A stretch of 64,000 nt of DNA, from contig NZ_JAHEVJ010000004.1 in NCBI RefSeq assembly GCF_018599245.1, positions 186,001 to 250,000 of the forward strand. The letters run 5' to 3'. The notes beneath the pieces are model-generated. The model saw nothing but the letters and a program-made list of their open reading frames with translations, did no database searches and had not been told where the DNA came from. Source of the DNA: Aliiroseovarius lamellibrachiae (lineage in GTDB: Bacteria; Pseudomonadota; Alphaproteobacteria; Rhodobacterales; Rhodobacteraceae). The translations under genes and the position numbers were made by a program. Below, piece after piece: positions 6,722 through 29,593 of the stretch; the stretch's first letter is position 1, and the number at the start of each line of letters is the position of its first letter.

Positions 6722-7056
6722 TGCAAGATGGGCCAACACTACGGATGCGGCGCTTTGGTTTCGAAGTGCATGAAAACAGCCAATTGGGTCACCTGTGGGT
6801 GATCCATGACGGCACCATCACTTGGGACCAGCTCCAAGCCATTAAGAATGACGTGTGGGGAAAATCCGCGCGCGCAATTGAGGTCTACCCTGCGGAATGT
6901 GATGTGGTGAATTCCTTGGATTGCCGCCACCTGTGGCGCATGGGCGCTTTTGATTTTGTGCCCGACTTACTGGGGGCAGATGACCCCCGCGACACTTTAG
7001 AGGCACGGCACACCGCCGCCTGGTCTGAAGCGCGTGGGGTTGGCAATGGTGATTAA
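6721..7056 (+). CDS. DUF7694-like hypothetical phage protein
   Basis: 111 residues. The core HLWVIHDGTITWDQLQAIKNDVWGKSARAIEVYPAECDVVNSLDCRHLWRM is a small conserved phage domain (DUF7694-like) found near terminase genes. The ATG at 6721 overlaps the end of the gp27-like gene by a single base, and its own end overlaps the terminase start by 11 bases. Function unknown; no membrane segments or catalytic motifs are apparent. Confidence 0.6.
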   Translation: MQDGPTLRMRRFGFEVHENSQLGHLWVIHDGTITWDQLQAIKNDVWGKSARAIEVYPAECDVVNSLDCRHLWRMGAFDFVPDLLGADDPRDTLEARHTAAWSEARGVGNGD

Positions 7057-8443
7057 ACCCGTAATCAATTTCTACCCCTACCAAAAACGCTGGTTGCAAG
7101 ACGACAGCCGCTTCAAGATCGGCATGTTCTCTCGCCAAACCGGCAAGACCTTCACCACCTGTGGCGAATTGGTGGATGATTGCATCCAAGCAGAAATTGA
7201 CGCGCGACGGGCGCGTTGGGTGATCTTGTCACGCGGTGAACGCCAGGCGGCCGAGGCCATGACCGAAGCGATTAAACCGCTCACCAAGGCATTTTACGGG
7301 GCCTATAACACCCTGCTTAAAGGCGGCGAGCCGGTTTACAGTGAAAGCGAGTTCCGCGCGCCCCAAGCCAAAGGGGCGGACGCTGTATATAAAGCGCTTG
7401 AGGTGACGTTCCCAGGCGGAAGCCGTGTAACAGCGTTGCCAGCCAACCCCGACACCGCTCGTGGTTTTTCGGCAAATGTGGTGCTGGATGAATTTGCATT
7501 CCATCAAAACAGCCGTGCCATTTGGTCCGCGCTCTTTCCGGTTATTTCCAAAGGTGACCAAAAGTTGCGGGTCATTTCGACGCCAAACGGCAAAGGCAAC
7601 AAGTTCTATGAGCTGATGGCGGGCGAAGATGAAATCTGGTCGCGCCACCATGTCGATATCTATGAAGCCGTGGCGCAAGGATGCCCCCGCGATGTGGATG
7701 CCCTGCGATCAGGCATGGCCGACGAAGATGCTTGGGCGCAGGAATACGAACTACGCTGGCTCGACGGGGCAAGCGCGTGGCTTGATTATGACCTGATATC
7801 ATCCTGCGAAGATCCACAGGCGGGCAAGCCGTCTCTTTATCAAGGCGGCATGTGTTTTGTTGGCGTTGATATCGCCGCGCGAAATGACCTCTTTGTCATT
7901 TGGGTGAAAGAGCTGGTGAACGGCCAATTGATCACCCGCGAAATCATTTCAAAACGCCGGATCACCTTTGCCGAACAAGACGCGCTTTTGGATGATGCGT
8001 TCCGACGTTACCGCGTGGTGCGGTGCCGGATGGACCAAACCGGTATGGGCGAAAAACCTGTGGAAGACGCCAAACGCCGCTACGGTGAAGACCGCGTTGA
8101 AGGCGTGATTTTCAGCAGCGCGTCAAAGCTTGATATGGCAACCTCATTTAAAGAGGCGTTCCAAGATCGCCGCGCGCTCATTCCTGCGGGCGACCCGCAA
8201 TTGCGCGCGGATCTTCATTCCATCAAATCCGTGACCGGCCCCACCGGAAACCGCCGCCTTGTCTCAGATGGTGAAACCGACGGCCACGCCGACCGTTTCT
8301 GGGCAGGTGCGCTTGCCGTGTCCGCAGCCGAAACCGAATACCAACCATTTGCCTATCGCCCCGTCCCCCCAGGCGGCGGGCGTGACGTAAGCCGCCCGGT
8401 CAAAATCACCGCCGGGTTTCGGGCGAAAAAAGGATTGTTCTAA
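7046..8443 (+). CDS. Terminase large subunit (Mu gp28-like)
   Basis: 465 residues. Walker A-like SRQTGKT is at residues 29-35 and Walker B VVLDEF at 145-150. A nuclease-type segment follows (FVGVDIAARNDLFVIWV, near residue 270, and MDQTGMGEKPVEDA near 335). This is the motor and nuclease that packages phage DNA; Mu-type terminases cut host DNA outside the prophage ends to fill the head. The start at 7046 is taken over the GTG at 7034 because the following MVIKPVINFYPYQKRW begins the conserved region. The last base is shared with the portal start. Confidence 0.85.
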   Translation: MVIKPVINFYPYQKRWLQDDSRFKIGMFSRQTGKTFTTCGELVDDCIQAEIDARRARWVILSRGERQAAEAMTEAIKPLTKAFYGAYNTLLKGGEPVYSESEFRAPQAKGADAVYKALEVTFPGGSRVTALPANPDTARGFSANVVLDEFAFHQNSRAIWSALFPVISKGDQKLRVISTPNGKGNKFYELMAGEDEIWSRHHVDIYEAVAQGCPRDVDALRSGMADEDAWAQEYELRWLDGASAWLDYDLISSCEDPQAGKPSLYQGGMCFVGVDIAARNDLFVIWVKELVNGQLITREIISKRRITFAEQDALLDDAFRRYRVVRCRMDQTGMGEKPVEDAKRRYGEDRVEGVIFSSASKLDMATSFKEAFQDRRALIPAGDPQLRADLHSIKSVTGPTGNRRLVSDGETDGHADRFWAGALAVSAAETEYQPFAYRPVPPGGGRDVSRPVKITAGFRAKKGLF

Positions 8444-9972
8444 TGTCTTCCCCCCTTCTTGACCAATACGGCCGCCCCATTCGCAAACAGGTTTTGACGG
8501 AGCGCGCAGCCGAGCCGGGTGTGACGTCCATTCGCAACGCCTGGGCAAACTCAATTGCATCCGGTCTAACGCCGTCGCGTTTAAGCGCCATTCTTGCGGC
8601 CGCCGCCGACGGCAATATGCACGACTACCTTGTGCTTGCTGAAGAAATGGAAGAGCGCGACCCGCATTATGCGTCTGTGCTGGGCATTCGAAAGCGCGCT
8701 ATCTCTGGAATTGAACCCATCGTTACGCCCGCGTCAGACAGTCCAAGCGACGTCAAAATCGCGGATGACGTGCGCGAAAAGATTGCAGAGCATGATGGGT
8801 TTAGCGACCTTGTTGAAGACATGCTGGATGCCCTGGGCAAAGGGTTTTCGCAAACTGAAATCGTGTGGGGCAGAAACAAGCGCGAATGGTGGCCCGCTGA
8901 GTTTGTTCACCGCGACCCGCGCTTTTTCACCTTTGACCAAGACACCGGGCGCGAAGTTCGGTTGATTGACGAACGCGACATGGTTGGCGGCCTTGCGCTG
9001 GAGCCGTTCAAATGGATCAGCCACAAGGCCAAGCTAAAATCCGGCCTTCCAATCCGGGGCGGTTTGGCCCGGCTCGTGGCGTTCGGCTGGATGTGCAAAA
9101 GCTACACCATGAAGGATTGGATAGCCTTTGTGGAAACCTACGGGCTGCCCTTGCGGTTGGGTCGATATGGGCCAAGCGCCACCGCTGAAGATGTGGAAAT
9201 GCTGTTTCTCGCGGTGTCCAATATTGGCACCGATGCGGCGGCTGTCTTGCCTGAAAGTATGAGAATTGATTTTGAGCAGATTGCCAGCGGCCCCGGCAAT
9301 GACGTCTTTGAAAAATTCGCACGCTGGGCAGATGAGCAAACGTCAAAGGCGGTTCTGGGACAGACGATGACGTCTGACAATGGGTCATCACAATCCCAAG
9401 CGGAGGTTCATAATGAGGTCCGCCACGACATTGCCAAAGCGGACGCCAAATCTGTTTGCGGCAATATCAATAGTGATCTGGTTAAGCCGTTCGTGGATCT
9501 AAACTACGGCGTACAAGAGAAATACCCGCGCCTAAAGCTGATCATCGAAGAGCCTGAAGACACCGACATGATCTTGCGAAACACGTTTCGCCTGGTCAGT
9601 CAGGGAATGCGGGTCAAGCAATCTGAAGTCCGCGCCAAATTGGGATATTCGGAACCGGATGACGACGACGAAGTTATGGGCAGCCCGACCAAACCCAAAG
9701 CCGCGTCCAAAACCGAAGTGGCAAAAAACCGGGCTGAAGGCGGCGACGCGGACGTGATGGCGACGCTGGAAGAGGACGCCGCGTCCGATTGGGAGGATAT
9801 CATGGGTGATATTCTTGACCCGGTTCTGGATCTTCTCGACACTGCGACAGGCTATGACGAGGCTTTAGAAATCCTGTCCGACGCTTTCCCTAAGATGGGC
9901 AATGCGGTGATTGAAAGCCTTGTTAAAGGGGCTGTTAAAGCCCGTGCTGAAGGTGACACAAAGGATGCCTGA
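8443..9972 (+). CDS. Portal protein (DUF935, Mu gp29-like)
   Basis: 509 residues. The series LTPSRLSAILAAAADGNMHDYLVLAEEMEERDPHYASVLGIRKRAI and later GWMCKSYTMKDWIAFVETYGLPLRLGRYG is diagnostic of DUF935. It forms the ring at the head vertex through which DNA enters. The length is normal for the family. A charged, less conserved C-terminal part (~residues 400-450) precedes the end. Its stop overlaps the MuF-like start by 8 bases, fitting coupled translation of portal and minor head protein. Confidence 0.85.
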   Translation: MSSPLLDQYGRPIRKQVLTERAAEPGVTSIRNAWANSIASGLTPSRLSAILAAAADGNMHDYLVLAEEMEERDPHYASVLGIRKRAISGIEPIVTPASDSPSDVKIADDVREKIAEHDGFSDLVEDMLDALGKGFSQTEIVWGRNKREWWPAEFVHRDPRFFTFDQDTGREVRLIDERDMVGGLALEPFKWISHKAKLKSGLPIRGGLARLVAFGWMCKSYTMKDWIAFVETYGLPLRLGRYGPSATAEDVEMLFLAVSNIGTDAAAVLPESMRIDFEQIASGPGNDVFEKFARWADEQTSKAVLGQTMTSDNGSSQSQAEVHNEVRHDIAKADAKSVCGNINSDLVKPFVDLNYGVQEKYPRLKLIIEEPEDTDMILRNTFRLVSQGMRVKQSEVRAKLGYSEPDDDDEVMGSPTKPKAASKTEVAKNRAEGGDADVMATLEEDAASDWEDIMGDILDPVLDLLDTATGYDEALEILSDAFPKMGNAVIESLVKGAVKARAEGDTKDA

Positions 9973-11173
9973 CTATACCGACAAGCCCGGCTATGCCTTT
10001 GATGTTGGCGCGCCGCCCGAGGTTGCGTCGTTTTTCAACAACAAATCCCTAAAGCCAAGCTTCTCCTGGCAAGATGTTGAGCCAGAGGAACACGCGGTTA
10101 GCTTTGCTGTCGCCAAAGCCATGCAGGTTGATGTGCTGGAAGCGATCCAGGGCGCGCTAAAAGAGGCGCTGGACGAAGGCATTCCTTACGACCAATTTGC
10201 AAAAGAGCTGAAACCACGCTTACGCAAAATGGGCTGGTGGGGCGTGAAAGAGCAAACGGACCCAATTACGGGAGAGGCCCGCAAGGTTCGCCTGGGCAGC
10301 CCGCGCCGCCTCAAAACGATCTATCGGGCCAATAAGAGGTCCGCCCGCGCCGCCGGGCAATGGGACCGGATCCAGCGCACCAAACGCGCCTTGCCTTATC
10401 TGATATATGGGCTTGGGCCAAGCGAGCGCCACCGGCCACACCACCAGGCGAAAGAAGGGCTAGTGCTGCCCGTTGACGATCCATTCTGGCAAACTTGGTA
10501 CCCCCCGAACGGTTGGGGCTGCAAATGCCATGTGCGCCAAATCACCAAGCGAGAAGCGGAAAGCCGGGGCGTATCTGAAAGCCCGGAGATCCCCATGCGC
10601 CGGGTCGTCAACACCCGGACAGGCGAGATAAAAGAAATCCCCTCGGGCATTGACGCGGGCTGGGAAATGAACCCCGGTCTATATCGTCAAAAGCGCATGG
10701 CTGAATTTCTCGCTGAAAAACTAGACGCCGCAGACCCTGCCATTGCCCACGCCGCCGCCCGTGACATGGCCGCGTCTTGGCGCTTGCGTCGCATCCACGA
10801 AGGCACGGCCAAAGGATCTGTGCCGGTCGCGATGCTGCCCCAGGACTTGGCGGACGCCATTGGCGCGCGCACCCGTGTCGTGCAGTTCTCAGACTACACA
10901 GCCGAAAAGACCAGGCGCAAACATGGCGAAGCAACGGCCGACGAGTTTGTCCGGGTCGCGGATCTGATTGAAAACGGCGCGGTTGCCCATGAGGTGTCGG
11001 GGAATGGCACCGAAAGCCTGATTATTGAGGGCGGCGACGATAAGCGCTGGCGGATGGTTTTGAAGCGCACCAGGGCGGGGAATGAAATCTTCTTAAGCAC
11101 GTTCCACCGCTCGACCTTGGCGAAGTGGCAACAATTGCTCCGCAATAAGAATGTCAAACTGGTGGGGGAGTAA
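9965..11173 (+). CDS. MuF-like head morphogenesis protein with C-terminal PBECR-type nuclease-like domain
   Basis: 402 residues. The MuF/SPP1 gp7 part spans about residues 1-220 and includes ERHRPHHQAKEGLVLPVDDPFWQTWYPPNGWGCKCHVRQITKREAE with paired cysteines. Residues ~300-400 (FSDYTAEKTRRKHGEATADEFVRVADLIENGAV...KRWRMVLKRTRAGNEIFLSTFHRST) resemble the phage PBECR/Barnase-EndoU-like nuclease fold fused to many MuF proteins. Such domains are thought to be delivered with the virion. The start at 9965 follows the 8-base overlap with the portal; an earlier in-frame start at 9911 is less likely. Confidence 0.75.
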   Translation: MPDYTDKPGYAFDVGAPPEVASFFNNKSLKPSFSWQDVEPEEHAVSFAVAKAMQVDVLEAIQGALKEALDEGIPYDQFAKELKPRLRKMGWWGVKEQTDPITGEARKVRLGSPRRLKTIYRANKRSARAAGQWDRIQRTKRALPYLIYGLGPSERHRPHHQAKEGLVLPVDDPFWQTWYPPNGWGCKCHVRQITKREAESRGVSESPEIPMRRVVNTRTGEIKEIPSGIDAGWEMNPGLYRQKRMAEFLAEKLDAADPAIAHAAARDMAASWRLRRIHEGTAKGSVPVAMLPQDLADAIGARTRVVQFSDYTAEKTRRKHGEATADEFVRVADLIENGAVAHEVSGNGTESLIIEGGDDKRWRMVLKRTRAGNEIFLSTFHRSTLAKWQQLLRNKNVKLVGE

Positions 11174-11517
11174 ACGCGTGGAGGGGCGGAAATTCCCTCG
11201 CGGCTCAAGACCGGCTTCCCTAGGCTCACGCGCAATACATAGATATGCCCGAAAGACTGGAAATTCAATAGATTTGGCCACCAATTGGCCGCATGGCCCA
11301 AAGCGCGCCGCAGGTTTGGTTTGAAATTGGCCGTTAAACACCGTTTAAACGCCCTGTCAGCCCTCTTGAGGATTTGCGCGCCGCACGATAGCGTTTGGGT
11401 AGGTCTTGCGCTGTGGGGGCGTTTTTGGGCTTCTCGCCCGCCGCGACTTTCCCGCCCAATCACCCCCCGACACCCGACGGACTGCATTAGGGATACGCGC
11501 TAGGGCAATTTTGCCCC
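11174..11517 (+). promoter_or_regulatory. Intergenic region with candidate late promoter before the protease operon
   Basis: 344 bases without a convincing gene; a 72-codon frame at 11285-11503 has no family-like features. The end carries the 20-mer CACCCCCCGACACCCGACGG (11461-11480), 19 of 20 identical to the motif at 4273-4292. A perfect inverted repeat GGGCAA-TT-TTGCCC (11503-11516) ends one base before the protease ATG. In phage Mu the activator-dependent promoter for gene I sits in this interval. The motif and repeat are seen; the promoter role is inferred. Confidence 0.45.
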
Positions 11518-12492
11518 ATGACGCTCACCAATCTTGCACATATCACCGCCCTCGCTTTGAACGCAGAAGCTGACCAGGTTCCTGAGTGGATCCAGCTTTT
11601 GCCCGCCGGGCCGGAAGTCTCTGGCCGTGACGGCCGGGAATGGCTGGTGCCAAACCCTGAAGCTGTTGTTTCCGCATTCCGCGAAAACGGCGGCGACCTT
11701 CCCGTAGATTTTGAACATGCCACCCAAGTGAAAGGCGACAAGGGCGAAGCCGCCCCCGCCGTTGGTTGGATCAAAGATATGGAAGTTCGCGACGGTCAGG
11801 TCTGGGCGCGTGTGGAATGGAATGAGGCCGGTCGCACGGCAATCGCAACGAAAGGCTACCGTTATGTAAGCCCCGTTTTCAAAGCAACCAAGGTCGCAAA
11901 AACCATCACCCGTATGGTTTCCGCTGGCCTGACCAATCAACCCAACTTGCAACTAGCCGCTCTCAATTCCGAGGGCGACCAGGAGGACAATGCCATGGAT
12001 AAGGCGATCCTTGAGGCCCTCGGCCTGTCGGAAGGCGCATCCGAAACGGATGTGTTGACGGCGATCAACAAGATGAAAACCGACACGGACACCGCCATGA
12101 ACCGTGCCGAAAACCCCGACGCCACCAAATTCGTGCCGCGCGCCGACCTCGATCTGGCCCTCAATAAGGTGAAAACCTTTGAGAAGGCGGAAGCCGACCG
12201 CGAAGAAGAAGCGGTCAACACCGTGATCGACGCCGCGATTGAAGACGGCAAGATTGCCCCGGCCAGCCGCGACTTTTATGTCGCTGCGTGCCGTGCCGAA
12301 GGCGGCTTGGAAAGCTTCAAAAAGTTCATTGAAGCCAGCCCAGTTATCGCTGGCGACAGCGGCTTGAATGACAAAGACGTCACCGCCCAAAACAAAACCG
12401 CATTGTCGGAAGAAGAGCTGGCCACATGCCGCGCTCTTGGCATGTCTGAAGAAGACTTCGCCGCCGCCAAAGCCGAAGACGCTAAGGAGTAA
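11518..12492 (+). CDS. Head maturation protease with scaffold tail (Mu gpI-like)
   Basis: 324 residues. VPEWIQLLPAGPEVSGRDGREWLVPNPEAVVSAFRENGGDLPVDFEHAT and RTAIATKGYRYVSPVFKATK are typical of the Mu I-type phage protease (serine fold, His in DFEHAT). The C-terminal half from residue ~160 is acidic and helical, as expected of the scaffold. It processes the head assembly and precedes the major head gene by 6 bases. The ATG has no clear Shine-Dalgarno because an inverted repeat (11503-11516) occupies that site. Confidence 0.85.
   Translation: MTLTNLAHITALALNAEADQVPEWIQLLPAGPEVSGRDGREWLVPNPEAVVSAFRENGGDLPVDFEHATQVKGDKGEAAPAVGWIKDMEVRDGQVWARVEWNEAGRTAIATKGYRYVSPVFKATKVAKTITRMVSAGLTNQPNLQLAALNSEGDQEDNAMDKAILEALGLSEGASETDVLTAINKMKTDTDTAMNRAENPDATKFVPRADLDLALNKVKTFEKAEADREEEAVNTVIDAAIEDGKIAPASRDFYVAACRAEGGLESFKKFIEASPVIAGDSGLNDKDVTAQNKTALSEEELATCRALGMSEEDFAAAKAEDAKE
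11995..12492 (+). CDS. Scaffold protein from an internal in-frame start (Mu gpZ-like)
   Basis: A strong ribosome site AGGAGG (11981-11986) lies 8 bases before an in-frame ATG at 11995 inside the protease gene. It would yield a separate 165-residue product, MDKAILEALGLSEGASETDVLTAINKMK..., equal to the scaffold half. In phage Mu, gene Z is translated in the same way from within gene I. The ribosome site and ATG are seen directly; use of the start is inferred from the Mu parallel. Confidence 0.65.
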   Translation: MDKAILEALGLSEGASETDVLTAINKMKTDTDTAMNRAENPDATKFVPRADLDLALNKVKTFEKAEADREEEAVNTVIDAAIEDGKIAPASRDFYVAACRAEGGLESFKKFIEASPVIAGDSGLNDKDVTAQNKTALSEEELATCRALGMSEEDFAAAKAEDAKE

Positions 12493-12498
12493 CCCGAC

Positions 12499-13410
12499 AT
12501 GATGGTCACCGCAGCATCCCTCGCCGCCCTGCAAGTGGGCTTTAAGAAGAATTTTCAGGACGCGTTTACGGCAATGCGCCCGGACGCCGACTACGCCAAG
12601 ATTGCCACGGTCATTCAGTCGACCTCCGCGTCGGAAACCTACGGCTGGCTGGGCAAATTCCCCAAAATGCGGGAATGGATTGGCGAACGTGTCATCAAAG
12701 ACATGGCGGCCAAAGGCTACAGCATCACCAACAAAGATTTTGAAGCCACCGTTGGGGTCAGCCGCAATGATATCGACGATGACAATTTGGGTATCTATGC
12801 GCCGCTCTTCCAAGAAATGGGCAACAGCGCCGCGCAACAGCCTGACGACCTGACGTTTGGCTTGCTGGCCAACGGTCGCACCGAAGAGTGTTTTGACGGC
12901 CAGTATTTCTTTGACACTGACCACCCGTCGTTCAACCAAAACGGCGATGCCGCCGTCGCGTCCAATGTGGATGCGTCTGGGCTGGTAGGGAACCCTTGGT
13001 GGTATTTGCTCGATACGTCGCGGCCGCTCAAGCCGATGATTTTCCAAGAGCGCAAAAAGCCTGAGTTTATCGCTCATGTTGACCCGACCAATTCGGATCA
13101 TGTGTTCAAGAAAAAAGAGTTCCTCTACGGCGTCGACGCGCGGTGCAACGTGGGTTTTGGCCTCTGGCAAATGGCCTATGCATCAAACGCGGCACTTGAT
13201 GGTGACAGCCTGGACGCTGCGATTGAGAAAATGCGCTCTCTTCTGGACAGCAATGGCCGCCCTCTGGGCGTCAAACCGGGCCTTCTGGTTTGCGGTCCCA
13301 AGCTGCGGGCGCACGCCAACAAAACCGTCAAGGTGATGTTGGGCGAAGGCGGTGCATCCAACGCCAACTACAACGCGGTCGACGTCCTCGACACGCCTTG
13401 GGTCGCTTAA
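12499..13410 (+). CDS. Major head (capsid) protein, Mu gpT-like
   Basis: 303 residues. VTAASLAALQVGFKKNFQDAF, SETYGWLGKFPKMREWIGERVIKDM, YSITNKDFEATVGVSRNDIDDDNLGIYAPLFQEMG and FDTDHP are hallmarks of the Mu gpT major head subunit. AAGGAG at 12484-12489 supports the first ATG at 12499; the second ATG at 12502 is possible. The gene follows protease/scaffold as in Mu. It is followed within 8 bases by a tRNA gene, which is unusual. Confidence 0.9.
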   Translation: MMVTAASLAALQVGFKKNFQDAFTAMRPDADYAKIATVIQSTSASETYGWLGKFPKMREWIGERVIKDMAAKGYSITNKDFEATVGVSRNDIDDDNLGIYAPLFQEMGNSAAQQPDDLTFGLLANGRTEECFDGQYFFDTDHPSFNQNGDAAVASNVDASGLVGNPWWYLLDTSRPLKPMIFQERKKPEFIAHVDPTNSDHVFKKKEFLYGVDARCNVGFGLWQMAYASNAALDGDSLDAAIEKMRSLLDSNGRPLGVKPGLLVCGPKLRAHANKTVKVMLGEGGASNANYNAVDVLDTPWVA

Positions 13411-13417
13411 GCCTTAG

Positions 13418-13492
13418 CGCGGGGTAGAGCAGCGGTAGCTCACCAGCCTCATAAGCTGGAGGTCGCGGGTTCAAATCCCGCCCCCGCAACCA
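13418..13492 (+). tRNA. Phage-borne tRNA-Met(CAT) with initiator-type features
   Basis: A 75-base cloverleaf with encoded CCA. Acceptor strands are CGCGGGG (13418-13424) and CCCCGCA (13482-13488), giving a C1-A72 mismatch with six good pairs below. D stem GAGC/GCTC has A11:U24. The anticodon loop is CTCATAA with anticodon CAT, and the T stem is GCGGG/CCCGC. The C1-A72 mismatch and loop match bacterial initiator tRNA. However, the anticodon stem is CCAGC/GCTGG rather than ending in three G:C pairs. It lies between the major head gene and the next head gene on the same strand. Confidence 0.9.
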
Positions 13493-13514
13493 ATTCTTTT
13501 CAGGAGACAGAAAT

Positions 13515-13898
13515 ATGTCTGGCAAGAAACTCATTATCTCAGCCGTCCCTAAAGCCGGTTTTTGGCGGTGCGGCCGTCACTTTACACACGCGGGCACGCC
13601 CGTTTCGAAAGGTGACTTTGACGACACACAATGGGCGCGCCTGGAAGCGGAGCCAAAGCTGCGCATCAAGCCCGCCACCGCCGAGGATCTGGCAAGCGCT
13701 GAGGACCGCGCGTTTCAAATCAAAGAAGCCATTACCTCTTTGACCGCTGGTGACTTCCAACAAGACGGCAAGCCCAAAATGGACGCGCTGAAGGCCCTTC
13801 TGCATGACGGGTTGGGCAAGATCCCCGCCACAGAACGCGATGCCGTTTGGGCTGACATGCTGGCCGCCAATTTTGAGGCCCCCAAAGCCTCTGAATAA
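13515..13898 (+). CDS. HI1506-related Mu-like head-region protein
   Basis: 127 residues. The start KLIISAVPKAGFWRCGRHFTHAGTPVSKGDFDDTQWARLEAEPKLRI matches the small family typified by HI1506 of the FluMu prophage, a probable head-decorating or stabilising protein found directly after gpT. The C-terminal half (SLTAGDFQQDGKPKMDALKALLHDGLGKIPATERDAVWADML) is a helical HeH/Lem-like segment. AGGAGA at 13501-13506 is the ribosome site. Exact role unknown. Confidence 0.65.
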   Translation: MSGKKLIISAVPKAGFWRCGRHFTHAGTPVSKGDFDDTQWARLEAEPKLRIKPATAEDLASAEDRAFQIKEAITSLTAGDFQQDGKPKMDALKALLHDGLGKIPATERDAVWADMLAANFEAPKASE

Positions 13899-13916: not shown

Positions 13917-14059
13917 ACGCCGCTGATGATCAAGGCGTGACAGTCGGGAGAGACCGGCCCCCAAATTCAAACACCGACAAGCCGCGCGGGCAAACCCGCA
14001 AAATGCGTCCTTGTCGGAATAGGTCCGGCACGCGGAGTGGGAGCGCTGCCAGCCGGGCC
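13917..14059 (+). ncRNA. Candidate structured RNA: four successive stem-loops between head genes
   Basis: The 180 bases between two head genes hold no plausible gene but four adjacent hairpins. They are ACGCC/GGCGT (13917-13921, 13934-13938), GTCGG/CCGGC around GAGAGA (13943-13958), CCGACAAG/CTTGTCGG (13974-13981, 14010-14017) with nested GCGGG/CCCGC (13986-13990, 13995-13999), and GGTCCGGC/GCCGGGCC (14022-14029, 14052-14059, one G-U pair). A structured RNA class called Mu-gpT-DE has been described downstream of Mu-like gpT genes; whether this is a member cannot be judged here. The structures are seen; function is unknown. Confidence 0.4.
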
Positions 14060-14078
14060 AACCAAAAAAAGAAGAGCC

Positions 14079-14522
14079 ATGACCTACGCCACGCAAGACG
14101 ACATTGTTACGCTGTATTCTGAGGACGCCCTTTATGTGGCGGACCGAGATGGCGACGGCGTTGTTGATGCCGAAGCTGTGGCCCGCGCCTTGCGGTCGGC
14201 TGGAGGCGAAATCGACAGCTATATTGGCATTCGCTACACGCTCCCAATCCCCGGTGAACACGAATTATTAAAGCAGTTTTGCGTTGATATCTCAGTCTAC
14301 CGTCTTGCGTCTTCGCGCGACGTTCTGACCGAAGAACACCGCACCCGTTATGACGACGCAATCAAGCACCTCATAAAAATTGGCGAAGGTAAGGCGTCGT
14401 TGAACCTGCCCGGACCGGTCAACCCTGACACCGGCGAAGAGACCACACCCGCCAAGCCACGCCCAATTGTGACGGGCGGCCCGGAGCGCGAATTTACCCG
14501 CCCCAAAATGAGGGGCCTTTAA
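14079..14522 (+). CDS. DUF1320 / Mu gp36-like head-tail connector
   Basis: 147 residues. MTYATQDDIVTLYSEDALYVADRDGDGVVDAEAVARALRSAGGEIDSYIGIRYTLPI is the standard opening of the DUF1320 (gp36) family, probably an adaptor between portal and tail. The start at 14079 is set by this homologous opening and the GAAGAG upstream. It is the first gene after the candidate structured RNA region. Confidence 0.85.
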   Translation: MTYATQDDIVTLYSEDALYVADRDGDGVVDAEAVARALRSAGGEIDSYIGIRYTLPIPGEHELLKQFCVDISVYRLASSRDVLTEEHRTRYDDAIKHLIKIGEGKASLNLPGPVNPDTGEETTPAKPRPIVTGGPEREFTRPKMRGL

Positions 14523-14525
14523 GCC

Positions 14526-14969
14526 ATGTCAGGTGCGATCTTATCCCTCACCACGCCGGGTTTAGACGAGGCGATTAAACGCTTAAGCGTGTTGCCCGGC
14601 TTTGAAATGGCAGAGCTGGCAGACGATGCCGCCGCCATTCTGGAAAGCTCAACCCGCGCACGGTTTGAAACCAAAGAAGCGCCAGACGGCACGCCCTGGG
14701 CAGATTGGTCCGACGACTATGCCGCCACCCGTGGCAGCAACCATTCCCTTTTGATCAATGAAGGCGAAATGCGTGACAGCATTGCAAGCTATGCCACTGG
14801 CGATGAAGCGGCCGTTGGTTCAAACCTTGTGTATTTCGCCCACCAGCATTTCGGCGGCGAAGAAATCGACAGCGGCATTCCTGCCCGCCCTGTGCTGGGC
14901 ATGTCTGACCAGGACGAACAGGATATTTACGATTTGGCGACCGGCCGGTTAGAGGAGCTGCTGCAATGA
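14526..14969 (+). CDS. Virion morphogenesis protein (Mu gpG / phage_tail_S family)
   Basis: 147 residues. AAAILESSTRARFETKEAPDGTPWADWSDDYAATRGSNHSLLINEGEMRDSIASYATGDEAAVGSNLVYFAHQHFGG and IPARPVLGMSDQD are diagnostic of the phage virion morphogenesis family. These proteins act at the head-tail joint or tail completion. In Mu the gene lies before protease I; here it follows gp36. The ending overlaps the gp37-like start by 4 bases. Confidence 0.85.
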   Translation: MSGAILSLTTPGLDEAIKRLSVLPGFEMAELADDAAAILESSTRARFETKEAPDGTPWADWSDDYAATRGSNHSLLINEGEMRDSIASYATGDEAAVGSNLVYFAHQHFGGEEIDSGIPARPVLGMSDQDEQDIYDLATGRLEELLQ

Positions 14970-15511
14970 GCGACACGCTTCTTTCTGATTTGCCACAAGC
15001 CGTTTGCGACGAGCTGAAGAGCTTCATGCCCAAGCTGAAGAAATGCGACCCGCACGCTGGAAAGTTTGACCTGGGCGAGTTGAAGAAGGCGGGTTTCCCG
15101 GCCTCTTCTGTGCTGGTGTCCAATCTGGGCGCAAAACAAGACACGACCTATGGCCAGGGCGCGCCGTCTTACATGCTGCGCATGGCCGCCTATGTGGTCA
15201 CAAAAGACGGCCTTGGCGTGAACCGTGACACATTGGCCGCAAATATCTGCCAAGTCCTGTTGCGAGTCATCCCAGGAAAGACCTGGTCACAATCTGGCTA
15301 TGGTCAGGCGCGTGATGTTGCCATGCAAACGCTGGTTTCAAGCAAGATCAAAGACAAGGGCGTGTCGCTTTGGGCCGTCACTTGGCACCAGCCCATTAGC
15401 TTTTTTGCGCCCGAACCCACCGAAATTGGAGCCGAATTATACGTCGGGCAATCGCCAGCGATCGGGGCCGCCAATGTGGCGGACTACGACCAGGTCGGAG
15501 GGGCGAGCTGA
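14966..15511 (+). CDS. Mu gp37-like tail terminator candidate
   Basis: 181 residues. LPQAVCDELKSFMPKLKKCDPHAGKFDLGELKKAGFPASSVLVSNLGAKQ and the following beta-rich region with WAVTWHQPISF resemble the phage gp37 family next to the virion morphogenesis gene in Mu-like phages. A role as tail terminator is likely from size and position. It is the last Mu-type gene before the P2-type tail block; the baseplate V start shares its last base. Confidence 0.6.
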   Translation: MSDTLLSDLPQAVCDELKSFMPKLKKCDPHAGKFDLGELKKAGFPASSVLVSNLGAKQDTTYGQGAPSYMLRMAAYVVTKDGLGVNRDTLAANICQVLLRVIPGKTWSQSGYGQARDVAMQTLVSSKIKDKGVSLWAVTWHQPISFFAPEPTEIGAELYVGQSPAIGAANVADYDQVGGAS

Positions 15512-15936
15512 TGTCGATGGAAGCCGCTGAAAACGACCGCCGGATTGGCAATGTTGTGCGCGTGGGCAAAGTCGCCTCTGTGGATCCGGGCAGCGCAAAA
15601 GCCGTTGTGGATTTTGGCGACCTGAAAAGCCCGCCGCTTCCGGTTGGGCAGTTGCGCGCCGGTGGGTTGCAATTCTGGTGGATGCCCACGACAGGCGAGC
15701 AAGTGCTTGTTGCCTGTGAAGGCGGCGACTTGGCCCAAGGCGTGATCGTTTGTTCCCTTTATGCCGGCAACGCCCCCAGCGCGGACGGCGCGGTGCCCCA
15801 GATCAATCTAGCCGGCGGAAAAATGATCGTGGACGGCGACATTGAAGTGACCGGCGATGTGATCGCCAGCGGCGTTAGCCTGGTCAACCACACTCACCCC
15901 GAAAGCATCGGAAGCAACACAGGGAAACCAAGCTGA
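15511..15936 (+). CDS. Baseplate spike protein, P2 gpV-like
   Basis: 141 residues. The OB-fold opening RRIGNVVRVGKVASVDPGSAKAVVDFGD, MPTTGEQVLVACEGGDLAQGVIVCSLY and the end DIEVTGDVIASGVSLVNHTHP match gpV of P2. The NHTHP segment holds the His pair that binds iron at the tip of the membrane-piercing spike. At 141 residues it is shorter than P2 gpV (about 210), so the beta-helix is short. It opens the P2-type tail cluster. Confidence 0.85.
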   Translation: MSMEAAENDRRIGNVVRVGKVASVDPGSAKAVVDFGDLKSPPLPVGQLRAGGLQFWWMPTTGEQVLVACEGGDLAQGVIVCSLYAGNAPSADGAVPQINLAGGKMIVDGDIEVTGDVIASGVSLVNHTHPESIGSNTGKPS

Positions 15937-16187
15937 TGACCATTAAGAACCAAAAGCAAGAGTACCGCGTGAAAGCCGCCGGTCCTGTTGCTGGCACGCG
16001 GCGCAAAGAGGGCGAGATTGTCTCTTTGACCGCAGCGCAAGCCAAATATGAGAATGTCACCTTGGTTAAAGACGAAGGCGCGCGTGTGGAAATCGTTGGT
16101 TCATTGGATGACCCAACGGTCAAAGCCACGGGGCTTGCGGGCAATGCAAAAACCGAAACAGCCAAACGCGGCCGCGCGAAGAAATGA
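15936..16187 (+). CDS. Small basic hypothetical protein in the baseplate block
   Basis: 83 residues. EYRVKAAGPVAGTRRKEGEIVSLTAAQAKYENVTLVKDEG has the pattern of short phage SH3-like proteins (pG..VAG..R..GE.V.LT..QA.Y), followed by a Lys/Arg-rich tail. Similar genes occur in head-tail regions of other phages as possible capsid or tail decorations. It sits between V and W with overlaps on both sides, so it is translated with them. Function unknown. Confidence 0.5.
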   Translation: MTIKNQKQEYRVKAAGPVAGTRRKEGEIVSLTAAQAKYENVTLVKDEGARVEIVGSLDDPTVKATGLAGNAKTETAKRGRAKK

Positions 16188-16525
16188 GCGGGATGAACCG
16201 GCATACGGGTCGCAAGATCGAAGGCGGCGCGCATCTTGCGCAGTCGATCCACGATATTTTGACCACGCCCAAAGGCACGCGGGTTATGCAGCGTGACTAC
16301 GGGTCAGATTTGCCGGATATCATCGACCAACCGTTAAACGGTGAAACCCTCATTGATGCCTATCAGGCCACGGCCGAAGCCCTTGATGAATGGGAGCCGC
16401 GCATCGCGCTTGCCCGCGTTCAAGTTGTTGAGGCGCGCGCCGGGTTCGCAGCGCTTGAGCTGACAGACACCGACGGCAACGTGATCCCTATGCCAATTGA
16501 TCTGACCGACGGGGGCACAGAATGA
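16184..16525 (+). CDS. Baseplate wedge protein, P2 gpW / gp25-like
   Basis: 113 residues. LAQSIHDILTTPKGTRVMQRDYGSDLPDIIDQPLNGETLIDAYQATAEALDEWEPRIALARVQV is diagnostic of the gp25/gpW lysozyme-like baseplate wedge family. It joins the tail sheath to the baseplate. The gene overlaps the next (gpJ) by 4 bases, as in P2. Confidence 0.9.
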   Translation: MSGMNRHTGRKIEGGAHLAQSIHDILTTPKGTRVMQRDYGSDLPDIIDQPLNGETLIDAYQATAEALDEWEPRIALARVQVVEARAGFAALELTDTDGNVIPMPIDLTDGGTE

Positions 16526-17433
16526 GCGGTTTCACCTCCATCGATCTGAGCAAACTGCCCAAGCCTGATGTGATCAAACAGGTGGATTATGATGCGTTGT
16601 TTTCAGAAATGAAGACCGAAGCCATTGCGCATTTGCCAGAGCTTGCCCCGTTCCTTGAACTGGAGAGTGAGCCGGTTACAAAACTGCTGCGTGTTTGCGC
16701 CTATTTTCGGATGCTGGACCGCGTGGAGTTTAACGACGGCGCGCGCGCGAACATGTTGGCGTTTTCGACCGGCGCGGATCTGGACGGGCTGGCCGCATTC
16801 TGGGGCGTTGAGCGCCTAACAGTGCAAGCGGCCGACGACAGTGTTTCGCCGCCCATCGCAGAAATCAACGAAGACGACGCGGCGTTTCGCGCGCGGGTCC
16901 AGCTTTCGCTTGAAGGCCACACCACAGCCGGGCCGCGCGGGTCATATTTGTTCTGGACGTTGTCCGCTTCAGGCGAAGTCAAAGACGCGGCCGTTGATAG
17001 CCTTTCCCCTGGTGAAGTGACCATCACAGTGTTGGCGCATGGCGAAGGTGACGGGGCACCCTCAAGCGAGCTTTTAACAGCCGTTGAAACCGCCTTAAAC
17101 GACGAAGACGTCCGACCCCTGTGCGACACTGTGATTGTGCAGGCGGTAACGGTTTTACCTTTTGAGGTTGAGGCCGAGCTGACCCTTTATGAAGGCCCCG
17201 GCGAAGCACAGGTATTAGAGGCCGCAGAAACCGCCTTGGCTGAATACCTGGCCCAACACCACCGGATTGGTCACGACATCACTCTGTCGGGCTTATATGC
17301 CGCCCTGCACCAGCCGGGCGTGCAAAAGGTAACGCTCACCAAACCGGCGGCCGATATCATTGTCGGGCCAACCGAAGTGGGCTTTTGCCCCAATGGTGGC
17401 TTGACCGTCACGGTAGGCGGTCGCGATGTTTGA
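16522..17433 (+). CDS. Baseplate protein, P2 gpJ-like
   Basis: 303 residues. FLELESEPVTKLLRVCAYFRMLDRVEFNDGARANMLAFSTGADLDGLAAFWGVERL and the later FRARVQLSLEGHTTAGPRGSYLFWTLSASGEVKDAAVDSLSPGEVTITVL are hallmarks of the baseplate J family. It forms the outer wedge of the contractile baseplate. The length matches P2 gpJ. It overlaps gpI by 8 bases. Confidence 0.9.
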   Translation: MSGFTSIDLSKLPKPDVIKQVDYDALFSEMKTEAIAHLPELAPFLELESEPVTKLLRVCAYFRMLDRVEFNDGARANMLAFSTGADLDGLAAFWGVERLTVQAADDSVSPPIAEINEDDAAFRARVQLSLEGHTTAGPRGSYLFWTLSASGEVKDAAVDSLSPGEVTITVLAHGEGDGAPSSELLTAVETALNDEDVRPLCDTVIVQAVTVLPFEVEAELTLYEGPGEAQVLEAAETALAEYLAQHHRIGHDITLSGLYAALHQPGVQKVTLTKPAADIIVGPTEVGFCPNGGLTVTVGGRDV

Positions 17434-17998
17434 TTTTGCCTCAATCCTTCCCCCCAATCACACGCCGCTGGAAGGCGCGTTAGAGCAAGCCATTGCCAGC
17501 TCCAAGCCCAACCTTGCGCCGGTTTCGCAACTGATGAACCCGCAAACCTGCCCGGCTGAATTGTTGGATTGGTTGGCTTGGGCGTTTTCGGTTGATGATT
17601 GGGACACAGATTGGGGTGAGCAACGCAAACGCATTGCGATCCAAGCCGCCGTCTTCATTCACCGCCGCAAAGGCACGCCTGGCGCAATCCGCCGCGCTCT
17701 TGATGCCTTTGGGTATGGCGGGGCCGCAATCACTGAGGGCTTTGGGGCATTCCTTTATAACGGTGAGTTGATCCATGACGGGTCAGAAGACTATGGCGAG
17801 CCTGACAACTGGGCAGAATACCGGGTCTATTTGGAACGCCCAATCACCATCGACCAAGCGGAGAAATTGAAGCGCATTCTTCGAAATGTCGCCCCCGCCC
17901 GGTGCCACCTCAAAGGGCTGTTTTTCACGCAAGCTGCAAACCGTTACAACGCCGCCATCTCATATGACGGCACCAACACCTATGGAGTTGTTCAATGA
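17426..17998 (+). CDS. Tail protein, P2 gpI-like
   Basis: 190 residues. LPPNHTPLEGALEQAIA...MNPQTCPAELLDWLAWAFSVDDWDTDWGEQRKRIAIQAAVFIHRRKGTPGAIRRALDAFGYG is a very clear P2 gpI match. The protein connects baseplate wedges to tail fibres. The end overlaps the fibre gene by 4 bases. Confidence 0.9.
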   Translation: MFDFASILPPNHTPLEGALEQAIASSKPNLAPVSQLMNPQTCPAELLDWLAWAFSVDDWDTDWGEQRKRIAIQAAVFIHRRKGTPGAIRRALDAFGYGGAAITEGFGAFLYNGELIHDGSEDYGEPDNWAEYRVYLERPITIDQAEKLKRILRNVAPARCHLKGLFFTQAANRYNAAISYDGTNTYGVVQ

Positions 17999-18837
17999 GC
18001 AATTTGACCGAAACTCCCATTTGGGAAGAATTCATTTATCTGGTTGAGCAAACCGACCCTGTGCTTGGCGGGGAGCCTAATCTTGCGACCAAGGCGGGGC
18101 TTGCGAACATTCAACCGCAACAGCTTGCGAACCGGACTGCATATCTGAAACAGCTTATTGACGGTATTTTGGGCGGTGCGCCCGACGCGTTGAATACCCT
18201 GCAAGAGATTGCGGCCGCGTTGAATGACGACGCTAATCTGGCGGCGACGTTGACCGCCCTCATTGCCACGAAAATGAATGCCGCTGACGGTGTTGGCACA
18301 GGCATTACCTCTCTCGAAAAGCTGATTGTTGGCGCGGCAATCGTCGCGGAAACCCACGCCAAGATGCAGGTAAATGGGTTCCTACGTTCTGGCGCACTTT
18401 TCCTTTACCCACACGTCGGTGATGACCCACTCAACGCATTGGTGCCTGGACAAGATAGTGTCTTGCGAAAAATGCTGGATGGTTCTCTCAGCTATGGAGC
18501 CGGTGAAACCGTCTTCACTTACATCTCAACCCATGTGCAAAAAACGGCGGCGGGGTCTGTCCCACTTCCCGGCGGATTGATCCTGAAATGGGGTGCCAGC
18601 GCCAATAGTGGCAACACAGGTTATGCCCAGGCCGTGTTTCCCATTGCATTCCCAAACGCTTGCTTGTTCGCCATGGGGGTTGACCGGTCATCGGCGGCGG
18701 CTGGCGCGGCGGGCGTAAGCCGCGCAGGCGTGCTGCATGATCAAATGCTTGCAGCGACTGTGGCCTTTCGCATCACAGATCATACTGGGGCAATTGTGAA
18801 CGGCGACAGCGTTCACTATTTGGCGATTGGACACTGA
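17995..18837 (+). CDS. Tail fibre protein (P2 gpH-like N-terminus, gp53-like tip)
   Basis: 280 residues, short for a fibre. The N-terminus (WEEFIYLVEQTDPVLGGEPNLATKAGLANIQPQQLANRTAYLKQLID) matches the attachment part of P2-type fibres. The C-terminal ~80 residues (GGLILKWGASANSGNTGYAQAVFPIAFPNACLFAMG...FRITDHTGAIVNGDSVHYLAIGH) resemble the receptor-binding tip of gp53-like fibres. It should decide host range. The small assembly gene next to it is its likely chaperone. Confidence 0.8.
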   Translation: MSNLTETPIWEEFIYLVEQTDPVLGGEPNLATKAGLANIQPQQLANRTAYLKQLIDGILGGAPDALNTLQEIAAALNDDANLAATLTALIATKMNAADGVGTGITSLEKLIVGAAIVAETHAKMQVNGFLRSGALFLYPHVGDDPLNALVPGQDSVLRKMLDGSLSYGAGETVFTYISTHVQKTAAGSVPLPGGLILKWGASANSGNTGYAQAVFPIAFPNACLFAMGVDRSSAAAGAAGVSRAGVLHDQMLAATVAFRITDHTGAIVNGDSVHYLAIGH

Positions 18838-18839
18838 AC

Positions 18840-19484
18840 ATGAAACATTTTGCACATTACGACAGTGAAGGTCAGATTATCGGTTTCTATGCGGATGATA
18901 CACACAAGGTCATTCCAGAACCGCATGTGGAAATCACTCTTGATGACCTGTCGAAACATGCTTCAAACGAGCAAATCCTATGTGTCGATTTGGCAGGCGG
19001 CAAGCCGTCTTTGAAGGAATACATGCCGCCACCGCCCTCTTTAGAGGAACAGAAAACGGCTGCATTGCAGACCGCCAGTGCCACGGCCAGCGCTTACCGC
19101 CGCCAAATCGCCAAGCAAGCCCATGAAGATCGGGCCATTGCGTGGGCGCTGAAAACCCCGCTGGCACTGCTTTGGCAGATGCACGAAGGCACCACCGACC
19201 CGGCGATTGTACCATTGGTGGCCGAGGCTCAAGCCGGATTTGAGGACGAAGCGGAAGCGTTGGGCGAAACCCCAGAAGAATTGCGCGCGGCGTGTATTGG
19301 CAAGTGGGTCGCGTTCTTCCGCGCCACCCAAATTGTTGAGGGCATGGAACGCTTGGCAGAACGCCGCATCCCCGCCGCCCAATCCCCTGAAGAACTGCAA
19401 ACGGTCATTGCAGAGTTGCAAGCCAAAGAGACGGTTGCAACTGCGAAACTGGCCACCCTAAATGAAGGAGGCGAACATGCCTGA
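18840..19484 (+). CDS. Tail fibre assembly protein candidate
   Basis: 214 residues. The start KHFAHYDSEGQIIGFYADDTH resembles the small tail fibre assembly (Tfa-like) proteins that follow fibre genes, but the rest is a long, charged helical region with little family signature. It follows the fibre by 2 bases and overlaps the sheath start by 8. Call is by position and the N-terminal pattern. Confidence 0.5.
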   Translation: MKHFAHYDSEGQIIGFYADDTHKVIPEPHVEITLDDLSKHASNEQILCVDLAGGKPSLKEYMPPPPSLEEQKTAALQTASATASAYRRQIAKQAHEDRAIAWALKTPLALLWQMHEGTTDPAIVPLVAEAQAGFEDEAEALGETPEELRAACIGKWVAFFRATQIVEGMERLAERRIPAAQSPEELQTVIAELQAKETVATAKLATLNEGGEHA

Positions 19485-20661
19485 ACAATTCCTACACGGC
19501 GCTGAAGTTGTCCAAATTGACGACGGCATTCGCCCAATCCGTACCGCCAAAAGCTCTGTGATCGGCTTGGTCGGCACCGCACCAGATGCCGACCCGGCGG
19601 TCTTCCCAGAAAACGTGCCGGTGCTTGTCGAAGGCCCCCGCAAAGCGGCAATTGCGGGCGCGGGCGGCACCCTGAAAGACGCCTATGAGGCGATCTATGC
19701 CCAAGGCGCAAGCGTGGCTATCTTTGTCAATGTGCCGGTCGGGGCAGACGACGCCGCCACATTGGCAAATATTGTGGGCGACGCCACCTTGGGCACCGGC
19801 GTTTGGGCCTTGGAACATTCTGCATCCAAATTGGATCTGGTACCGCGCATTCTTGCCGCCCCTGGCTTCACCTCAACCGGCGCCGCAGATCCCGCCAGCC
19901 CAGTTGTCACCAATCTGATCGCCGTGGCCGAAAAGCTCCGCGCGACGGTCATCTCGGACGGCCCCAACACCAATGAGACCGACGCCAAAACCGAACGCGA
20001 GAAATGGGGGTCTGACCGACTGTTTATCGTTGACCCGGCTGTAACCGTTTTTGACTCCGATGCGGCCGATTATGTGACCCGCCCGGCGTCTGGTTATGCG
20101 GCTGGCTTGATCGCCAAACGTGACATTGAAAAGGGCTTTTGGTGGTCGCCTTCCAACCAGGTGATCAATGGAATTTCCGGCACCGCCCGGCCTGTTTCGT
20201 TTAACCTGAGTTCAACAGAAACCGAAGCCAACCGCATGAATGAAGCCGAGGTGGCGACCATCATTCGCCGCAATGGTTTCCGCCTTTGGGGCAACCGTTC
20301 CGCCAGCGCTGATGCGCAATGGGCGTTTCTGTCTGTGCGCCGCACCGCAGATATCATCTATGAAAGCATTGAGGCCGCGCATCTTTGGGCAATGGATCGT
20401 CCCATGTCGGCACAGCTTTTCCAAGACATTCGCGACAGCGTTCAAGGCTTTGGTGACAACCTGGTCAACCAGGGCGCTTTGCTGGGCTTCAAGTGCTGGC
20501 TGGATCCAGAGTTGAACACAGAGGCCACGCTGAAGGCCGGGAAACTCTATCTCGACTTTGACTTTGAACCGCCAGCGCCGCTTGAGCACCTTGTGTTCCG
20601 TGCCCACCGCGAAGGCAAATATTATGACGAGCTGATCTCTTCGGTCAAAGCCGCAGCATAA
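19477..20661 (+). CDS. Contractile tail sheath, P2 gpFI-like
   Basis: 394 residues. FLHGAEVVQIDDGIRPIRTAKSSVIGLVGTAPDAD and the C-terminal part (RNGFRLWGNRSASADAQWAFLSVRRTADIIYESIEAAHLWAMDRPMS) identify the P2-type sheath. Contraction of the sheath drives the tube through the envelope. The ATG at 19477 has AAGGAGG at 19465-19471, which decides it over the in-frame ATG at 19462. The tube gene follows after 12 bases with its own AGGAGG site. Confidence 0.9.
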   Translation: MPEQFLHGAEVVQIDDGIRPIRTAKSSVIGLVGTAPDADPAVFPENVPVLVEGPRKAAIAGAGGTLKDAYEAIYAQGASVAIFVNVPVGADDAATLANIVGDATLGTGVWALEHSASKLDLVPRILAAPGFTSTGAADPASPVVTNLIAVAEKLRATVISDGPNTNETDAKTEREKWGSDRLFIVDPAVTVFDSDAADYVTRPASGYAAGLIAKRDIEKGFWWSPSNQVINGISGTARPVSFNLSSTETEANRMNEAEVATIIRRNGFRLWGNRSASADAQWAFLSVRRTADIIYESIEAAHLWAMDRPMSAQLFQDIRDSVQGFGDNLVNQGALLGFKCWLDPELNTEATLKAGKLYLDFDFEPPAPLEHLVFRAHREGKYYDELISSVKAAA

Positions 20662-28187: not shown

Positions 28188-28264
28188 TGGCGCGGTTGAC
28201 GGGACTCGAACCCGCGACCCCCGGCGTGACAGGCCGGTACTCTAACCAACTGAGCTACAACCGC
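28188..28264 (-). tRNA. tRNA-Asp(GTC), copy 1
   Basis: 77 bases including encoded CCA (TGG on the + strand at 28188-28190). Acceptor GCGGTTG/CAACCGC, anticodon loop CTGTCAC giving anticodon GTC, and T loop TTCGAGT. An identical gene lies 315 bases away. It is read leftwards. Confidence 0.97.
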
Positions 28265-28502
28265 GCATGAGGGGGTATTTAGGCCGGGGGGGCTGGGGCG
28301 TCAATGGAAAAAGTGGTCCGAAATGAAATCAAATACACTCTGGCAACACATCACATGACTGGTCGCGATTTCGGGTCGAAACGCCTCGTCCATCCGCCTG
28401 CGACCCAAGCACATGTGCAACATCACATCGTCATTACAGAACGTGGAAAGTAAAAAAGCCCCGCCGATTGGCAGGGCCTTTTTAAAGCAAATCAGGCAGT
28501 GA
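28265..28502. other. Spacer between the two tRNA-Asp genes
   Basis: 238 bases with no plausible gene. A terminator at 28452-28483 lies 19 bases past the second tRNA-Asp. The remainder shows nothing recognisable. Confidence 0.5.
28452..28483 (-). terminator. Intrinsic terminator after tRNA-Asp copy 2
   Basis: GGCCCTGCC-AATC-GGCGGGGC on the minus strand forms a stem (one mismatch) followed by six T residues. The plus strand also ends in TTTTT, so it may work both ways. It lies just downstream of the tRNA gene read leftwards. Confidence 0.75.
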
Positions 28503-28579
28503 TGGCGCGGTTGACGGGACTCGAACCCGCGACCCCCGGCGTGACAGGCCGGTACTCTAACCAACTGAGCTACAACCGC
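28503..28579 (-). tRNA. tRNA-Asp(GTC), copy 2
   Basis: 77 bases, same sequence as the copy at 28188-28264, with encoded CCA and anticodon GTC. Followed by a terminator on the same strand. Confidence 0.97.
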
Positions 28580-28656
28580 CCACTGCCAGTCTTGCGACTG
28601 TTTGGGCGTTCTATTCTGCGCGCGCTGCACCGTCAAGCGACAAAGTGAACTTTTTC

Positions 28657-29250: not shown

Positions 29251-29325
29251 GGGCTCTCCAATACGAATTCGTGACGAATACACCCCTTTTACATCGGATG
29301 AGGCAGTATCAATATCAGGAGAAAA

Positions 29326-29401
<76 letters not shown>

Positions 29402-29517
29402 ATTCCGGAGCTTTGATTAACGCTGTGATCCGGTCAGCGCAAGAGTGTTTTTATAACAAACAGAAAAATCTTCCGTCCATCACCTGACGCCAATCCCTTG
29501 ATTTGGCATCTGTTAAT

Positions 29518-29593
<76 letters not shown>

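Follow-up and report, generated by a model that had tools for sequence, protein, structure and literature searches.

Among the head genes of a Mu-like prophage, Aliiroseovarius lamellibrachiae carries a tRNA gene that is probably (about two chances in three) a phage-owned initiator, which would be made together with the head operon and would raise the supply of initiator during late expression. The gene was studied within a stretch of 64,000 nucleotides of contig NZ_JAHEVJ010000004.1 (hereafter, the window). As judged from the sequence and its gene context, the tRNA would form part of the late head transcript, from which it would be released by RNase P and 3' trimming before the host MetRS charges it and it is formylated; the formylated molecule would be used in the P site, and in a host with a single initiator gene of its own the initiator supply would be raised while the late proteins are made in bulk.

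The tRNA gene and its prophage setting

An earlier note on this DNA had described an initiator-type tRNA-Met with C1-A72, A11:U24, a CTCATAA loop, and an encoded CCA end, and had named a tRNA classifier as a check. This description was borne out: ARAGORN called a tRNA-Met (cat) with exactly the same ends, and the Rfam tRNA model RF00005 gave 69.7 bits (gathering score of 29), by which a chance fold was ruled out. The features of the gene and of the surrounding operon are listed in Table 1.

Table 1. Features of the window tRNA and of the adjacent head operon (positions in the window).
Feature	Position	Strand	Evidence
tRNA-Met (cat), predicted initiator type, 75 nt, CCA encoded	13418..13492	+	ARAGORN; Rfam RF00005; sequence
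C1, unpaired acceptor-stem end opposite A72 (13488), putative formylation mark	13418..13418	+	Sequence; 1:72 behaviour across the viral group
D-arm GAGC-AGCGGTA-GCTC, A11:U24, ordinary G18	13427..13441	+	Sequence; host initiator
Anticodon arm CCAGC-CTCATAA-GCTGG; anticodon 13450-13452	13443..13459	+	Sequence; comparison with host and viral set
T-loop TTCAAAT, ordinary U55	13470..13476	+	Sequence
Mu-like major head protein gpT, preceding the tRNA	12499..13410	+	PF10124 8.9e-116; phrog_371 major head protein 1.1e-121
FluMu_N-like small protein, next head-operon gene	13515..13898	+	PF17891 E 2.1e-4, below curated cut-off; phrog_2498 1.8e-7
TerL, Mu portal, gpF-like, Mu-like I protein (upstream head genes)	7034..12492	+	Pfam
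Mu gp36-like, virion morphogenesis (Phage_tail_S), tail sheath	14037..20661	+	Pfam (four ORFs searched, one without family)

The A11:U24 pair is a mark of initiators, and in the window tRNA this purine-pyrimidine pair is formed by positions 13428 and 13440. The CTCATAA loop with its CAT anticodon occupies positions 13448-13454, every stem is paired, and the encoded CCA is preceded by A73. As in bacterial initiators, there is no strong 1:72 pair, and the two marks of elongator Met and Ile2, namely, a D-stem pair of the C11:G24 type and a paired 1:72, are both absent. As read from the sequence, the anticodon stem has A29:U41, G30:C40, and C31:G39, so that the three consecutive G:C pairs at 29:41, 30:40, and 31:39 (hereafter, full 3GC) are not present. 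Overall, the assignment of the gene to the initiator type is supported by all of these marks except full 3GC, by identity to the host initiator, and by the behavior of 1:72 across the viral group (see below).

The position directly behind the major head gene, which had also been reported in the earlier note, was confirmed, with seven bases between the gpT stop codon and the tRNA. The sequence AGGAG at 13502-13506 precedes the start of the FluMu_N-like gene, and gpT, the tRNA, and this gene are encoded on the same strand. No promoter-like site was found between 12300 and 14100 with the sigma-70 consensus as the sole model; therefore, expression of the tRNA together with the head operon is the likeliest. 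The Mu-like nature of the prophage follows from the MuA transposase (L650, just upstream of the window), Mu portal, gpI, gpT, and sheath, identified with Pfam and PHROG; a holin-like gene and a baseplate hub were found as well, and, judged by gene content, the Mu gene set is apparently complete. Apart from the window tRNA, no tRNA lies between C15:133168 and the tRNA-Asp of the host at 214191. Just to the right of the prophage, at 28188-29593 of the minus strand, two tRNA-Asp and two tRNA-Val genes with pairwise equal scores were located. A match to Rfam PYLIS_3 at 41210-41309 of the window (39.1 against a gathering score of 38) is perhaps due to chance. Elsewhere, a 27-kb contig (L038, G000:C3) carried tRNA-Trp in three copies at intervals of about 1.9 kb, the third copy having altered first bases.

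Comparison with the host and other chromosomal initiators

All 44 tRNA matches of the host genome were typed, and the CAT anticodon was found in four of them, namely, in the host initiator, the elongator Met, an Ile2-like tRNA, and the window tRNA. Thus typed, the genome contains one initiator gene besides the window tRNA (L002, 77 nt). Both molecules have C1 × A72, A11:U24, CTCATAA, A29:U41, G30:C40, A73, and encoded CCA; they differ in size (77 vs. 75 nt), the D-loop of the host initiator being 2 nt longer, and in the anticodon stem, which in the host is TCAGG/CCTGA with U27:A43 and G31:C39. Among the bottom three pairs of this stem, 31:39 alone is flipped between the two. The identity of the window tRNA to the host initiator was 81.8%, compared with 74.7% for elongator Met and 65.9% for Ile2. 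Comparison with the host initiator had been suggested in the earlier note, and it placed the window tRNA closest to that molecule, which itself does not have full 3GC. The statement of the earlier note that the CCAGC/GCTGG stem does not end in three G:C pairs is therefore true, but it is only in part a peculiarity of the window tRNA, as the host initiator has A29:U41 too. In a sample of the class of the host, in which 118 of 190 genomes gave a match, AGG was present at 29-31 in every match listed. It follows that the absence of full 3GC is partly a host trait and that, with full 3GC present in 49 of 193 viral initiators (see below), this feature does not define the initiators of the host class.

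Initiators with a short D-loop were detected in 60 of 299 phylum genomes, namely, that of the window and 59 from three other families (f28, f47, and f68), the listed 5' stem halves of which end in GGG, except for one ending in AGG. The phage type may have arisen from such chromosomal short D-loop initiators.

Initiator-type tRNAs of related prophages and other viruses

The site behind gpT was analyzed in 111 gpT loci (31 genomic and 80 from viral contigs, with some elements present in both sets), the closest relatives being from Roseobacter, Halocynthiibacter, Pelagimonas, and others, including one labelled as a Phycisphaerae MAG. A tRNA directly behind gpT on the same strand was found in three of the loci (L051, L079, and L096), and all three were initiator-like, one of the window type and two of other types. 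The earlier note had pointed to related Mu-like prophages as the means of recognizing a lone remnant; such a remnant is made less probable by these same-site tRNAs, but 108 of the 111 relatives had no tRNA at this site, and the tRNA is thus dispensable there. The tRNA of L079 (3924-3998) was 92% identical to the window tRNA and had the same CCAGC/GCTGG stem, at a gpT identity of 84%; it deviates in the loop (CTCATTA) and in C73. The tRNA of L096 (85.5% identity) has another stem, U1:A72, and a U31 × U39 mismatch, and the odd features of the L079 and L096 copies could be decay. The L051 tRNA (L051:3928-4002), also with another stem, was 80% identical to the window tRNA and nearer (94.7%) to a tRNA of contigs in which gpT gave no match, such as L488, and which there lies shortly before a terminase large-subunit gene. 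The loop CTCATTA, with U37 replacing A37, was observed in the initiator-type tRNAs of L079, L307, L372, L375, and L387.

An order-wide search revealed gpT in 42 of 390 genomes, and among 30 loci that of the window alone had a tRNA directly behind gpT; L399, L403, and L422 had other tRNAs, on the opposite strand. The tRNA of L403 (898-972, minus strand), located upstream of gpT, is a mixed tRNA-Met with an elongator-like D-stem, U1:A72, and a poorly paired anticodon stem. In a further scan of 33 loci, 17 of which were examined anew (six new contigs), only L546, identical with the L079 contig, had a tRNA at the site. On the gpT tree (34 rows), the distribution of the tRNA called for three changes, of which well-supported branches made two unavoidable; shuffling of the labels gave 3.9 changes on average, with as few as three in 52 of 500 shuffles, and clear clustering of the tRNA was thus not evident. 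Either initiator-type tRNAs arrived at the gpT site repeatedly, or loss and exchange of the tRNA took place at this site. When 290 sampled viral loci carrying initiator-type tRNAs were compared with the gpT of the window, a match was found in one alone (the L079 contig), and the gpT site is thus rare among viral initiators.

Among named phages, tRNAs with an initiator-type D-arm like that of the window tRNA were found in Rhizobium phage RHph_TM3_3_3, Sinorhizobium phage NV1.1.1, and Pseudomonas phage D3, with the CCAGC/GCTGG stem being identical in the first two. Unlike in the window, the annotated neighbors were not named head genes in any of them: the gene lies among small genes in RHph_TM3_3_3, among hypothetical genes in NV1.1.1, and near other tRNAs, with the loop CCCATAA, in D3. 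The window tRNA, alone in a head operon, also differs from phage tRNA arrays, which have several tRNAs per locus. According to PMC12429752, 15 of 25 phiLM21-like Sinorhizobium prophages have a single tRNA gene, tRNA-Met in 10 and tRNA-fMet in four, and such single genes fit a role of their own rather than codon supply. Among the titles listed in searches of the open-access PMC literature, no study dealt with phage initiator tRNAs as a group. The window gene is of a known but little-discussed kind, a variant in anticodon stem and D-loop, and its site behind gpT recurs in few relatives.

The viral group was sampled with two scans of viral contigs (at least 120 matches each, 239 readings), in which the patterns fixed the D-arm, the loop, and, in one scan, bases 5-8, leaving positions 1 and 72 and the anticodon stem free. 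After 19 readings with fewer than five of the pairs 2:71-7:66 or fewer than four T-stem pairs had been dropped, 220 remained, 193 of them distinct as counted within the D-loop class of each scan; the sample may include host genes at provirus edges, and its statistics describe the group, not the window tRNA itself. The 1:72 position was a mismatch in 145 of the 193, of many kinds (CA, TT, AA, GA, CT, AC, and CC), A:T in 40, G:T in five, and G:C in three. In a second registering, a 1:72 mismatch was found in 143 of 198 initiator-type tRNAs vs. 22 of 757 non-CAT tRNAs from the same loci (Fisher p about 2e-98, with relatedness uncorrected, the sequences not being independent, and weak-stem rows dropped); it was also present in nine of 34 other CAT tRNAs of these loci, with 10 initiator-type, 30 non-CAT, and nine other CAT tRNAs skipped. 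Since the letters at 1:72 vary while a strong pair stays absent, selection for formylation is a plausible reading. The 30:40 pair was G:C in 184 of the 193, whereas 29:41 was A:T in 94, G:C in 62, and T:A in 36; at 31:39, G:C (158) and C:G (17) were found. PMC11497404 reports that 16S A1339 grips 30:40 and G1338 grips 29:41, and that translation in vivo falls about 20-fold when 30:40 is flipped; 30:40 as the kept pair fits this grip of A1339. By its sequence features, the viral group looks as if it were under selection for formylation and P-site use. Many of the sampled initiators are on loci with several tRNAs. Of the 81 listed upstream neighbors of lone viral initiators, 65 were scanned (ten singly); matches to portal, head, or terminase families were obtained for some, with at most three members per family, and no enrichment in head genes is claimed.

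The elbow of the molecule also varies within this group. The window tRNA has ordinary G18/U55, and the L051 tRNA has A18 and G55, by which it at first looked decayed; however, A18 goes with G55, and G18 with U55, in short D-loop viral initiators, so the L051 tRNA is probably not decayed. Scans of the viral collection for short D-loop initiators gave at least 120 A18/G55 matches and neither A18/U55 nor G18/G55. With both bases free in the pattern, 25 distinct G18/U55, 11 A18/G55, and three G18/C55 sequences were obtained, the C55 readings being explained by a 4-nt variable loop that shifts the reading (rows of the L505/L506 kind). All fetched loci together gave 106 distinct G18/U55, 80 A18/G55, and one G18/C55 (nine skipped), a ratio set by the search patterns and not by frequency. 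The other phage tRNAs mostly obey this rule as well: a cruder D-loop test (96 set aside) gave, with U55, 1362 GG, three AG, and five with neither; with G55, 21 AG and no GG; and with C55, seven GG. One locus, L214, had the swap in ten non-initiator tRNAs and kept U55 in 22, its initiator being G18/U55. An A18/G55 initiator was found in none of 200 phylum genomes. Pseudouridine 55 is described as universally conserved in PMC4810234. No report of A18/G55 was found among the papers listed from the open-access PMC literature, where other spellings may exist, and no paper there was found to combine the words A18, G55, tRNA, and D-loop. The A18/G55 combination would amount to a compensatory exchange, made by nature, at a contact that is among the best conserved in tRNA.

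Alternative explanations and significance

Several other explanations of the gene were considered. The phage initiator might be an attack-resistant substitute for host tRNA-fMet destroyed by nucleases or other toxins, with C31:G39 altering nucleotide 39, an explanation that we consider unlikely. The nucleotide in question adjoins the site at which, according to PMC4105405, enteric VapC cuts tRNA-fMet (between A38 and C39), and anticodon-loop changes in phage tRNAs have been proposed as evasion in PMC10264068. C31:G39 occurs in the 17 viral initiators mentioned above as well as in RHph_TM3_3_3 and NV1.1.1, and an initiator with C31:G39 and an ordinary-length D-loop was found in none of 394 family genomes (a pattern that excludes short D-loops such as that of the window tRNA). 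Nevertheless, G31:C39 is kept in 158 of the 193 viral initiators, two of the listed chromosomal initiators of the class (G1079 and G1021) are also without C39, and PMC10264068 also states that phages generally avoid tRNA-fMet where the anticodon itself is the target. A search for the PIN domain (PF01850, the only family searched) gave no match in the host genome, compared with 10 of 14 controls, and VapC was accordingly rejected as a candidate in this host. It is less probable still that the main role of the tRNA is that of a processing site by which the abundant gpT message is parted from the genes downstream. In four elements, a tRNA does separate gpT from the gene that follows, and a GC-rich hairpin takes its place in long spacers of several relatives (L048, L056, L098/L099, L101, L122, L131, and L142). 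However, in a sample of 44 loci from 112 (window included; mechanical start rule), the spacer between gpT and the next gene was 14 nt or shorter in 27, so such punctuation is not needed; moreover, any tRNA would serve this purpose, yet every tRNA found directly behind gpT in the same orientation was of an initiator type, and the only different tRNA close to a gpT end was a tRNA-Phe on the opposite strand past a truncated gpT match (L054 and L399).

A neutral passenger or decaying remnant acquired by recombination appears improbable to a somewhat greater degree. Its patchy presence, without clear clustering on the gpT tree, the odd features of the L079 and L096 copies, and the single match to the gpT of the window among the viral initiator loci agree with such an origin, whereas the fully paired stems and encoded CCA of the window tRNA, the higher identity of the L079 copy in the tRNA than in gpT, and the group-wide absence of a strong 1:72 pair argue against it. 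That the gene encodes an elongator tRNA (Met or Ile2), or a hybrid that takes part in elongation, can hardly be credited. The incomplete 3GC is in line with this, but the GAGC/GCTC D-stem with A11:U24 and the unpaired 1:72 contrast with the host elongator Met and Ile2, in which the D-stem is GCTC/GAGC and 1:72 is G1:C72 and G1:U72, respectively, and to both of which the identity is lower than to the host initiator. The elongator hybrid was thus rejected on the D-arm and 1:72, and the suggestion of a hybrid in the earlier note was not supported, since other viral initiators, too, have identical or similar stems.

A phage-owned initiator made with the head operon remains the preferred reading, and it bears on the usual explanation of phage tRNAs. 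Codon supply does not cover an initiator, because AUG starts need no rare decoding. The group-level features are more interesting than the single gene. Tentatively, and at somewhat less than even odds, phages may keep partly independent lineages of initiator tRNA, characterized by a short D-loop, a 1:72 that changes but is hardly ever strongly paired, and relaxed 29:41 and 31:39, the window tRNA being one of them; a large branch would have swapped the near-universal G18-U55 for A18-G55, and the purpose would be initiation when the host initiator is scarce or attacked. A large natural set that varies at 29:41, 31:39, 1:72, and the elbow, but in which the acceptor end stays without a strong pair and G30:C40 is mostly retained, points to the initiator marks that are really needed; with it, nature supplies molecules on which initiation and the attack of hosts on tRNA-fMet could be studied.
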